Shown here: positions 20,900 through 54,131 of the stretch, one piece after another
Position numbering within the stretch: the stretch's first letter is position 1
Layout: every line of letters begins with the position of its first letter
NCBI GenBank assembly: GCA_030062745.1
Contig: CP099847.1
Span: 28,506,923 to 28,570,922 of the forward strand
DNA from: Capitulum mitella
Taxonomy: Eukaryota > Arthropoda > Thecostraca > Pollicipedomorpha > Pollicipedidae
DNA length: 64,000 bases
Reading direction: 5' to 3'
The notes under the pieces: generated by a model
The model's database searches: none
The model's input: only the letters and a program-made list of their open reading frames with translations
Told to the model about the DNA's origin: nothing
Program-made: the position numbers and the translations under genes

Positions 20900-20998
20900 C
20901 TGGAATAGCTTTTCCCACGCTCCCTGCGTTTCATCCTGCCAAATGCCCTTCTTTTCCAGCGATGATCTTATCACCAAGATAAACTGGTGACCAAGAAC
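20900..20998 (-). CDS. Globin X-like gene, exon 4 (helices G-H)
   Basis: Acceptor TTTACAG|GTT and donor CAG|GTAAAA bound 99 nt (33 codons, phase 0 at both ends). The translation starts VLGHQFILVIRSSLEKKG (helix G) and ends with DETQGAWEKLFQ (start of helix H with its conserved aromatic). Splicing after exon 3 places the junction at G7.0, the ancestral second globin intron. A further phase-0 intron inside helix H matches, within alignment uncertainty, the extra helix-H intron reported for globin X. The remaining H-helix residues need one more exon, which was not found. The joined coding sequence up to here is 142 codons from the ATG at 54,131. Confidence 0.88.
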
Positions 20999-23841
20999 CT
21001 GTAAACGGATGATTGTTTCGTCATGATAAAGTTTTTGAGATTTGCTCGAAATTAACACGGTACTTGCTGAAACAGCACCTAGAAAAATCGGCATGTTTTT
21101 CGTTACAGTTGTCAAAACTAGATACGCCCCTGGAAGTACAGGGAAATATCGTTTTCCGAGTTGCTTGTGATAAAAACAAAACACTCGTCGCAACATCGGA
21201 CGCGGTGAAGTGCAACTTTTGCATCTCGCACTGTACGCGCCTCTCACCGCAAAACGATTCAGGACAATATCCCATTACTTGCGGTAGGGACATGTCGACA
21301 TGACAAAGTGAAACACGCCTAAGTTACTGTTTATTAAGGATGTGGTTCCGCAGCATGCTGAAATCTTTCCGGTGGTGTAGCCGCCATTACGGACTATGTT
21401 ATATTTGTCTAATTAAAAAAGGTTTTTAATAGCCATTTAAAACTACTAAGACACACTGGCAGAGCGCGTGACAAGCGAGATTTAACACCTCTCTGTCTAG
21501 ATTTGGAAACATATTTTTCAAAACTGTTTGACGCACTACTTTTGCCTTATGCTCTTTTCAGTGCAAACTGACTGTTATCGTCCTACGTCAGTATTTTCCA
21601 TGCGAGGAATGACAATTTTCATTGTCGCTCAGCACAATATTGTTCGATACCGTTACCAAACGACTCAACATCATCCGCAGAGACAGGTCTAAGAGTAGAA
21701 ATATTGTTCTCGGAACAGTTCCGTGCACGAAAGAGCCTTCACAAGTCAACGCAGTGGCAATGCAAATGCATAAAATTCAGATGTTTCAGCTGTGTTTCTC
21801 TTACGCACTAATGATACGCCGTCCAATAGGTACGAAGTTACCAGCCTTCGAAAAGCGTGGAAGGGGGTGTTTGAAACATAGATCTACACTTTTTACCCTC
21901 TTCACCTTCAACAAATCAGGATATGATCACTTCATGTCTTATTTTACTTGGTAAACTGACTAACAAAGTACCCATATGAATTACTCTAGATCCACCTTTG
22001 ACCAACTAAAAACAATGATGTACATCCTCAACACTTGTCTTAATACGTTGGTGTAAAATGCTGTCACCTGACATCATTATGCATTAAATGTAGCAGACCA
22101 TTGTGCTTTGCTTCCATATTTTTGCTAAATCGTCAAAACATGTGTGCCCCTCAAACCCACTTTTGGTGTCGCCCCTGACGAGGAAAAAGTCAAAAAATGG
22201 GCAAAGTGTGAAAAAACGAACAAGAAGCATCAAGGTTTTAGCTGTCTGTTTGAAACGTCTTAGAATGGGATAGCAAAAAGCTTCTGAGCGGGGTGGAAAT
22301 TTGTCCATAGTAACAAGAATAGGATTAAAAACGATACGTTCTTTGTGATGAGACCAGTGAAAATTCAAGTAAAGAACGAAACTTGGGACGAATATGCGGA
22401 ACAAATGTGTCAACCAAAAATTCACGTGCTACCGCACGCGATAAACTATTTTTTGACCACCTCGACGGCCCTAGCTTGTATGGTAATTGACATTAATTGA
22501 CATGTTAAATTACAACGAAGGGCGACAACACGCAATTATTATACTTTTAGAGGAGTTGGGACAGGGCGTCTGGCACCTCCATAGCAATGCCTTTCATTAT
22601 GTTCTTTTTTCTCTGATTTATCCGACGTCGTTTCATTAACCCTTCCACACTGAGCAAGCTGCTTCTGCTGCTCACGATATTTATCCCTTCTCTGGTCCTA
22701 AACATGCGTCATAAAGCGTACTTTTCGGCATAACTGAGGACTATCAGAAGTCTCGGAGAGTTTTGGAAAATCTTGGAAAAGAATAGAATGGTAAACTCAT
22801 CAACTGAACGGTCAGCAGTTATCATGGAAATTCACCCGATGAAATACAATATTGCAAACTTACTGCTTATTTCGGAAAAAATCATCTTTACTTCACTGCT
22901 GGGATCCTCCACAAAATCTGAGCACTTACTGGTCAGCATCGTTGTGGTATGCGATATCATCACGTCATTGCCAACCCATAGCCAAAACACGAACATTAAT
23001 TGTACAGAACAAACATCACCTCAATCTGAGCGATTGCTTTTCCGTACACTATGTAACCTCTGCCCCTTTGATGTGTGCTGGAATATAGATAACTACGATG
23101 AGCTCCACATATTGAAATGGTTGCTGTTGCGCCGTGTAGCGAAACGGGTTGGTATGTCGGCGCCTATGAATTACGCACTTCTCGCTATTCATTGCTAAGA
23201 TGCAATGCAATGCAAAAATAAAATCAACCTTGATTTTTGTACGAAAGATAATGATTTCTGTTCCGTGCTTTAACGCCATTTTAGAAAACACGGAAACTGA
23301 AGTGCGTTTTATTCTGTGTTTTAATCAGCATGCTCACATTTTTAAGTCCTCTTTTCTTAAAGGAAGTCGCATGAGACGCAAATCAAAGGCAACTTACTGG
23401 TTGTGCTTTTTATCGTTGTGATTTGGGCAGTTTACCTTTCAAATCTTTGCACTTTTTGTTGTCCAGAACAGATAAGGGGCACATCAAAACGAGGGATATT
23501 CACCACTAGTTACGAAACATTTACGCCATCTCCTGAACCACTGCTTACCACGCTTCCCTCGAATGCTTCAGTTGATTTGAGACATTCTATTGAAAATGAC
23601 TGGAAATGTACACAGTCCGAAACGCTGATTCCATTATCTAACGACTGGCGAGAGCACGATTCAGAATTTCGGGATGACGAATTCGCGGCAAGGCATCGAA
23701 CGTTTTACGGAGGCGGCAGCCAACCTGCGAGCAGACGAATCGGACTGCAGACACTCAACGGAAAGAAGCGCCGCCGTGAAGCGCCCTTCGGTTCACGCGC
23801 GGCACGCTGCCATTTTTCTGGCGTGTGTCGGAAATCCTCAC
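20999..23841 (-). other. Globin intron 3 (G7.0)
   Basis: 2,843 bp between a GTGAGG donor and a TTTACAG acceptor, phase 0. No transposon or other gene was recognised inside it. Open frames on the plus strand here, and one antisense to exon 3, have no supporting features. Confidence 0.75.
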
Positions 23842-23962
23842 AATCATCTGGGGAGGCCGCGCGCCGTACGCGGCGTGCCTGAGGCAGAGCGCCTGGGCGA
23901 TCGATGCACACTGCTGCTCCGAGTCCAGCCTCAAAATAATCTTGTTTATGAAGCCCATCACT
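23842..23962 (-). CDS. Globin X-like gene, exon 3 (helices E-F)
   Basis: 121 nt lie between acceptor ATTTCAG|A and donor ATT|GTGAGG. The first base completes an Arg codon begun in exon 2. The translation runs VMGFINKIILRLD (rest of helix E), a loop, then CLRHAAYGARP, in which His is the proximal F8 haem ligand, and ends PPQMI. Forty full codons join in frame to exon 4. The F8 His and the Y-G-A-R-P turn are typical of animal cellular globins. Two Cys residues occur around helix F. Confidence 0.92.
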
Positions 23963-24190
23963 CTGAAATGGCGCCACAGGTGAACAAGCGCCGGGAAGAA
24001 TACTTGGTGGTGATCGATCAGCTCAAACAACGCATCGCGAGTAATATTTAATGCGTCTCACAATCTTTTAAATATTTCCATCTATGTAAAAATTCCACTG
24101 GTTATTTGGAATACATATTGAGCATGGTAACTGTTATTTGCAGTAGCGGTAGAAACACAGACACCAGCGACATACAATAAAAAAACGCAC

Positions 24191-24295
24191 CTTGAAGCAT
24201 GATGTCGTAGTTCTTGTGTCTGCTTTATATCGTCGCAGTCCATGTCCCTAAAAGCCGGGAAAGCTTCTTTGATGTCGGGATAGGCTTCAAACAAT
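24191..24295 (-). CDS. Globin X-like gene, exon 2 (helices C-E)
   Basis: 105 nt lie between acceptor ATTGCAG|A and donor AAG|GTGCGT. The first base completes the Arg codon split at the end of exon 1; the last two bases begin the next split Arg. The translation starts LFEAYPDIKEAFPAF, containing the C-D corner with CD1 Phe, then RDMDCDD and ELRHHAS, where the second His is the distal E7 residue. The intron after it falls in the E10 codon (E10.2), a position used by globin X-type genes and absent from vertebrate haemoglobin and myoglobin genes. A Cys in the CD-D region is in the area where neuroglobin-like proteins carry a redox Cys. Confidence 0.93.
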
Positions 24296-52820: not shown

Positions 52821-52995
52821 GATATATATATATATATATATATAGAGAGAGAGAGAGAGAGAGAGAGAGAGAGAGAGAGAGAGAGAGAGAGAGAGAGAGA
52901 GAGAGAGAGAGAGACAGAGAGAGAGAGAGAGATAGACAGAGAGAGAGACAGATAGAGAGAGAGACAGATAGAGAGAGACAGATATACAGAGAGAA
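52821..52995. repeat. Compound microsatellite (TA)n(GA)n
   Basis: About 11 TA units run directly into more than 60 GA units with occasional GACA and GATA interruptions toward the right. The peptide encoded in either direction is a repeat artefact. Confidence 0.97.
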
Positions 52996-52999
52996 GACG

Positions 53000-54025
53000 A
53001 AAAGACAGATGCATCGCTGTAGACTTTATTCTTTATTTTCTGCCTATCTCTTATCTATTGCGGCCTTTTCGTCATTATTACTCATTCCCCTTTAAAACCG
53101 GCAGAAAATACTGGGGCCCAAACTAACATTAGGTGGGTACAAATCAACATTGGATGGGACAGCACCCTCTCAAAAGAATACAAATCGACGCCCTTGCCTC
53201 GGGTCTCTGGGCGATGGATGGAGAACTCCATCCGCGCCCTGAGCACCTTGGTCCGCGGTCGGAAGCACCTAATAGGCCAGCTATTTTCCCTGTGGAGCTC
53301 AAGTGCGCTAGTCCGCCTCTGATCAAAGGCAGCTGCGTGGAGCAGTTCCATGTGCTTCGTCCGCGTAAAATGCCAATTTTCCGACGATTTTGGTCTCATA
53401 TACGTGTAATGGCCAGGGCTGTTTCCCTACTACTCAACAAAATCGTCTCTGCGGGGATCTGAGACGTAGGCAGGTTACCTTGATGTAAATCCCCGATCCC
53501 AACGGTGATGGGAAATCGAGAAGATGTGTAGCAGGTAATAAACACCCTGCCGCTAAGATAACTATGTGTTGTCAGTGACAGAGCCAGTTTTCGTGTCGTG
53601 GATTTGAATAGAAAACTTTGCAACTGTTTTGACGTATAAACTTTGTAGTGTGTACGCTTCTTATGCAGAAAGAGAACACAGGAACATTATGTTAGAATAT
53701 GCTAAACAATCTTCCAAAAAGTGGAAAATGCGCGGAAAGGCAGACGCCTGCCTTTTACTTTCCACCCAAGAACAATATATGATTTTCAATCTCGTCAAGT
53801 GCGGAAAAAACAGGGCATTTTAACAGTTGAACAATTAAGGTCGTGTCATCAGCACACAAGAAAAGCTTCATCGGTAACAAATGGACATCCCTGTGGCCAC
53901 GTGCCTTCGGATTCATTCAAGTGAGATGGGTGGCTATATTTCAGTCTGTCGTCCAAACACGGCCCACCACGCCGGAACAAGCGAAAAAAGAACCACCACT
54001 CGCAAATTACGCCACATTTCAGAGC
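53000..54025. other. No gene recognised (right end of globin intron 1)
   Basis: Open frames at 53,133-53,462 and on the opposite strand lack domains. Confidence 0.4.
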
Positions 54026-54030
54026 CTCAC

Positions 54031-54131
54031 CTGGTGAACATGATGACGCCCACCCCCACTGGGTCCGACTCCAGGGCCTTCCAGGTTCGCAGCAGCTGGG
54101 CTTTGTCCTCGGGACTCAGAGGGGGTGGCAT
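54031..54131 (-). CDS. Globin X-like gene, exon 1 coding part (helices A-B)
   Basis: The ATG at 54,131 (context GTGACCATGC, A at -3) starts MPPPLSPEDKAQLLRTWKAL, helix A with the near-invariant Trp, and continues SDPVGVGVIMFTR (helix B). The exon ends CAG|GTGAGG with the Arg codon split after two bases, exactly the ancestral B12.2 globin intron, and joins exon 2 in frame. The full gene encodes an intracellular haem protein with both His ligands. By the GbX-like intron pattern it probably belongs to the globin X/neuroglobin-type lineage, whose members are linked to redox or ligand-binding roles rather than bulk oxygen transport. The same frame stays open upstream to about 54,305, including an ATG at 54,206, so a longer N-terminus is possible. 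Confidence 0.88.

Follow-up and report, generated by a model that had tools for sequence, protein, structure and literature searches.

How should four open stretches on the minus strand of a 64,000-nucleotide window (the whole stretch of DNA analysed in the current work) be interpreted, when together they read as a globin and the first of them lies some 30 kb from the other three? Analysis of the sequence confirmed these stretches as one real invertebrate globin gene, predicted to bind haem, with a model that is provisional at both ends. All features of this model are located on the minus strand. The coding part of exon 1 in the globin frame (54031..54206) starts with an ATG at 54206, contains an inner in-frame ATG at 54131, bears the Trp of A12 and the Arg of B12, and ends at position B12.2; it is followed by intron 1 (24296..54030), which measures 29,735 bp and is partly filled by repeats. 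Exon 2 (24191..24295) runs from B12.2 to E10.2 and bears the CD1 Phe and the E7 His, and is separated by the 228-bp intron 2 at E10.2 (23963..24190) from exon 3 (23842..23962), which runs from E10.2 to G7.0 and bears the F8 His. Intron 3, at G7.0 (20999..23841; 2,843 bp), leads to exon 4 (20900..20998), which runs from G7.0 to H13 and then meets the donor CAG|GTAAAA. The four exons are joined in frame with phases 2, 2 and 0 and with GT-AG at all borders, so that the matching phases and the exon spacing proposed by a previous sequence-only reading of this locus (exons 2 and 3 being 228 bp apart, and exon 1 lying about 30 kb away) were both borne out. Using splice-site weights that correspond to consensus values, the four donors were placed in the top 0.03%, 0.24%, 5.0% and 1.0% of 3,713 minus-strand GT sites, while the three acceptors were ordinary (top 25%, 10% and 17% of 3,659 minus-strand AG sites).

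The joined 167-residue product matched the Pfam Globin family (PF00042) at 1.4e-19 with 71.1 bits, the curated cut-off being 22; when the exons were compared singly, exon 2 matched (1.6e-6) and exons 1, 3 and 4 matched no family. Among solved structures in the PDB, cytoglobin (5.5e-14) and nerve haemoglobin (4.5e-13) were retrieved, and no molecule named globin X was present among the best 60 of 270 matches. Identity of the product to the seven globins used ranged from 20.6 to 29.2%. Helix positions were assigned by alignment to a checked myoglobin sequence, giving W42 as A12, H91 as E7 and H123 as F8, with F71 as CD1 being deduced from P72 at CD2; the A-helix Trp, CD1 Phe, E7 His and F8 His read earlier from the letters are thus all found in their expected places. 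The same alignment maps introns 1 to 3 to B12.2, E10.2 and G7.0; for the central intron, GT-AG borders that leave the reading frame open give E10.2 and not the E11.0 of neuroglobin.

Which type of globin these positions indicate was assessed against published accounts, each represented here by part of its text. The introns at B12.2 and G7.0 are ancestral globin introns and are not specific to globin X (GbX). Arthropod GbX typically has four exons with introns at B12.2, E10.2 and G7.0 and typically has no helix-H intron, nearly all arthropod GbXL genes have B12.2 and G7.0 only, and arthropods seem to be without neuroglobin (PMC7457136), the vertebrate form of which has its central intron at E11.0, one base from E10.2 (PMC3485006). 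Being typical of arthropod GbX and setting it off from GbXL, the E10.2 intron supports a GbX type for the present gene, and placement in this family, which rests on gene structure, is probable. Vertebrate genomes are CpG depleted; the observed/expected CpG ratio of 1.01 across the window, which reveals no depletion, argues against a vertebrate source. The proposal that this is a globin X-type gene of an invertebrate, with the globin X intron set, thus stands with respect to E10.2 beside B12.2 and G7.0 and to the CpG content, but not with respect to helix H, where the donor is at H14.0 and the vertebrate intron at H10.0. Taken together, the locus is likely to represent a genuine nuclear globin gene of globin X type, encoded on the minus strand of a non-vertebrate animal genome.

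The foremost rival to this reading, a haemoglobin-like (HbL) or other invertebrate globin in which E10.2 was gained independently, is unlikely. It draws on the repeated gain of central introns in or near helix E (PMC7457136), on cytoglobin and nerve haemoglobin being the closest solved structures among the PDB matches listed, on H14.0 not being a named GbX site in the available parts of the published accounts compared, and on E10.2 not being exclusive to GbX, since Ciona globins carry it (PMC3485006). Against it, the central HbL positions named in the available text of PMC7457136 are D7.0, E9.1, E14.1, E15.0 and E16.1, with E10.2 missing, although this list does not amount to an exclusion since the same text refers to other HbL deviations whose positions it does not state.

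At the 3' end of the model, the exon-4 donor follows H13 and is therefore designated H14.0 in myoglobin numbering, four codons from the vertebrate H10.0 site; provided that the numbering is the same, this donor would differ from the H10.0 intron, which in the available text of the literature consulted was found only for vertebrate GbX, as an extra intron (PMC3206486, PMC3485006, PMC4524481). A helix-H donor away from H10.0 does not exclude GbX at large, since arthropod GbX is typically without a helix-H intron, and the available text of PMC7771090, PMC8483323, PMC13023373 and PMC3087553 gives no helix-H intron position for protostome GbX. If exon 4 is read through unspliced, two codons (VK) are followed by a stop, which implies either a fourth intron or an H helix that is cut short.

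Candidates for a last exon were ranked by a hand-made helix-H tail score combined with an acceptor term. A candidate at 20656..20712 on the minus strand (18 codons and a stop, after a 187-bp intron) was second (7.28) of 566 downstream candidates, the first (7.83) being at 19324, and controls reached 9.88 (1,713 plus-strand candidates) and 7.42 (1,198 upstream candidates). With the tail score alone, values of at least 6.4 were obtained at 2 of 6,008 control AG sites versus 4 of 1,186 downstream sites, this threshold being post hoc since it equals the candidate's own score. By profile score the same candidate ranked 35th among the 1,171 downstream tails, and 228 of 5,968 controls did at least as well; the best downstream tail, at 11822, was equalled by 10 of the 5,968 controls, some of the top control tails being artefacts that re-read exon 1; this tail has a poor acceptor, outscored by 85% of sites. 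The two scorings disagree, neither points to one exon in particular, and no last exon was called. No AATAAA was detected on the minus strand from 20890 to 16000, and ATTAAA occurs there at 19453 and 18336. The last exon may lie within the remaining 20.9 kb or beyond the window.

At the 5' end, the gene had previously been proposed to start at 54131; this ATG is indeed in the globin frame, but it is only the inner of two such ATGs found when 54900-54100 was scanned, the outer being the one at 54206. The ATG with the best context is instead located at 54216 (context GACGCCATGG) and opens an overlapping 22-codon frame (54148..54216, minus strand) that begins MGNHAARR and does not share the frame of the globin, which starts 10 nt later. 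Judged by eye rather than with a predictor, MGNHAARR resembles an N-myristoylation start, and the in-frame globin start reads MQQ, without such a motif; most, though not all, globin X proteins carry an N-terminal acylation motif (PMC7457136). The context of the MGN start is near ideal for initiation. A splice within exon 1 that would connect the MGN start to the globin frame was considered and rejected, there being no workable GT/AG pair: the sole GT in 54216-54148 is at position 54212, and of the 16 AG sites as far as 54050 only four would preserve the globin frame, two by introns of 16 and 19 nt, which are too short, and two by introns of 112 and 154 nt, which would delete at least the beginning of helix A. 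The frame conflict could represent a sequence error, an upstream exon, a real loss or start-site control. Upstream of exon 1, a GC-rich and CpG-rich stretch (54501..55000, minus strand; GC 0.76 and 0.68 in two 250-bp steps) is likely to be a promoter or 5' UTR, and together with the best-scoring acceptor-like site of 55000-54100 (first base after the possible acceptor being 54420, minus strand) it makes a 5' UTR intron possible.

The start region is also present as a second, inverted copy. The segment 54153..54391 (minus strand), which spans the upstream region and the first codons, matches 42747..42984 (plus strand) inside intron 1 with 96.7% identity over 240 columns, three substitutions being counted on the alignment of both copies between GAATGACC and GGGGGCC. 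Two direct repeats of 8 bp (GAACTGAC), the first starting at 42711 and the second at 42974, accompany the intron copy and are consistent with an insertion into intron 1; these repeats were noticed post hoc, and the octamer occurs five times in the window when both strands are counted. The left repeat is located 34 nt off the edge of the match, and no match of more than 15 nt to this 34-nt gap exists in the rest of the window. Copying from gene to intron is preferred, although one window cannot prove it, because the repeats are found at or near the edges of the intron copy and none were seen at the gene copy. A transposon origin of the approximately 240-bp start region is less favoured.

These peculiarities at both ends bear on a second rival, namely that the gene is decaying or was recently broken, having its start motif off-frame, its H helix short and part of exon 1 copied, a reading that we regard as distinctly unlikely. 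The out-of-frame MGN start, the stop that ends unspliced exon 4 two codons on and the last exon that was not called all agree with it; yet the four exons are open, the key residues are kept and the donors are strong, and the frame conflict could also stem from sequence error, an upstream exon or start-site control. A more elaborate proposal, which we consider very doubtful, takes the displaced myristoylation-like start as a start-site regulator: the production of globin X, in a soluble form that is not acylated, would depend entirely on leaky scanning or on another start, the intron copy could pair with the start region in unspliced RNA or yield an antisense transcript, and H14.0 would be a new site for a helix-H intron in this line.

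Whether exon 1 belongs with the other three exons was evaluated by a chance test, in which a seven-sequence globin profile that excluded the letters of the query was compared to all six-frame segments in the window that are 15 residues or longer, with a mild circularity in that the profile columns were taken from an alignment including the query. With the full profile, the exon segments constituted the first four matches (exon 2, E 4.9e-8; exon 1, 0.28; exon 4, 0.37; exon 3, 0.59), the next segment having an E of 3.1, and they covered collinear profile positions (exon 1, 2-31; exon 2, 31-69; exon 3, 66-104; exon 4, 100-138). When each exon was given a profile of its own, first rank went to exons 1, 2 and 4 (exon 1 at E 0.058, runner-up 0.24; exon 4 at 0.055, runner-up 2.6), and exon 3 was absent among the best six matches to its own profile. 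From the four collinear top matches and these single-exon results, the join across 29.7 kb is well supported overall, with exon 1 being weak when taken alone. That exon 1 derives from another globin gene, exons 2-4 having a different first exon, is most improbable: the 29.7-kb gap and the weakness of exon 1 by itself (E 0.058 versus 0.24 for the next segment, and no Pfam match) invite the idea, but no other segment of the window, on whichever strand, resembles an exon 1 more closely, the phase of exon 1 fits, and no second globin exon set occurs among the profile matches listed, the nearest being a plus-strand match to the exon-2 profile at 59088-59417 (E 0.03, or 3.1 with the full profile) that sits in a repeat.

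A repeat family about 1 kb long is present four times in intron 1 (25.2-26.4, 29.5-30.6, 33.7-35.0 and 40.0-40.8 kb; together about 4.4 kb, 71-84% alike pairwise), which also contains a piece resembling a reverse transcriptase at 27.9-28.5 kb (0.0046, a score that does not reach the curated cut-off). Given this repeat family and this piece, the length of the intron looks like ordinary repeat growth, most of the intron being unassigned. Elsewhere in the window, a segment of a Pao-type retrotransposon peptidase was observed at 7.7-8.2 kb (5e-18). Rfam at gathering thresholds and ARAGORN returned nothing over the window, and a viral contig scan with the globin protein yielded one stretch that fits a pattern, with no relative confirmed. 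Globin X has srp14 and plekhg as conserved neighbours (PMC3206486, in part); in the present case no host gene was recognised next to the globin among the 10 of the window's 64 ORFs that were scanned. It is plausible that ordinary annotation would miss such a gene.

For the preferred reading, a globin X-type gene of a non-vertebrate animal, transcription would start in the GC-rich stretch upstream of exon 1, the 29.7-kb intron 1, enlarged by repeat insertion, would be spliced out, and a further intron at H14.0 would lead to a short last exon. Globin X has six-coordinate haem. Haem binding of the product is predicted from the conserved pocket residues: His F8 would bind the haem, and His E7 would be the distal or sixth ligand. 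By analogy with what has been proposed for GbX, the protein may take part in redox, NO or ROS chemistry and not in the bulk transport of oxygen.

The gene appears largely ordinary, as does its first intron despite its length; what stands out is that an acylation-like start lies out of frame, that a donor occurs at H14.0 and that the start region recurs in inverted orientation. The locus adds to the globin-X-type genes of invertebrates one whose exons are very unevenly spaced, and the placement of its helix-H donor off the vertebrate site bears on whether the helix-H intron is ancestral. Membrane attachment has been proposed as ancestral for animal globins (PMC7457136, in part), and the out-of-frame acylation start, if real, would make this gene a naturally occurring example of its loss. 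When compared to known systems, the gene resembles arthropod globin X in its introns at B12.2, E10.2 and G7.0, in its CD1 Phe, E7 His and F8 His, and in an N-terminal extension ahead of helix A; it differs in having a fourth donor, at H14.0, where three introns are typical, and in its myristoylation-like start being out of frame. With vertebrate globin X it has in common the same three introns and a helix-H intron, which is at H10.0 there, the donor of the present gene being 12 nt further on. GbXL shares B12.2 and G7.0, but the additional E10.2 of this gene does not agree with a gene having these two introns only. Finally, vertebrate neuroglobin has the globin fold, B12.2, G7.0 and a central helix-E intron in common with the gene described here, and differs from it in that this central intron is at E11.0 rather than at E10.2.

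The unproven candidate for a last exon of the globin gene (20656-20712, minus strand) coincides with a short tandem duplication of approximately 27 bp (20656-20720, minus strand), which was recognized by eye, spans an acceptor-like site and is absent from the 15 rows listed by Tandem Repeats Finder.

At the opposite end of the gene, an MGN start is located at 54148-54216 on the minus strand, its initiation context being strong and its frame different from that of the globin. The first globin intron (intron 1) holds, at 42747-42984 on the plus strand, an inverted copy of the gene's own start region (54153-54391, minus strand), of approximately 240 bp and 97% identical, with 8-bp direct repeats close to its edges. 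The same intron contains four copies of a diverged repeat family (25191-26395, 29513-30603, 33741-34992 and 39992-40822). Two copies of a second family (14414-15628 and 58521-59900; about 75-80% alike) are located outside the globin gene. A Pao retrotransposon peptidase segment (PF05380, 5e-18) is present at 7722-8204 on the plus strand.

Positions 1-2000 are GC-rich (GC 0.61 and 0.71 per kb) and include a GCGGCGG-type tandem repeat at 1295-1361. A further GC-rich and also CpG-rich stretch (20001-20750; GC 0.56-0.78), positioned immediately downstream of exon 4, is possibly the promoter of a different gene, and resembles the GC-rich, CpG-rich stretch upstream of globin exon 1.
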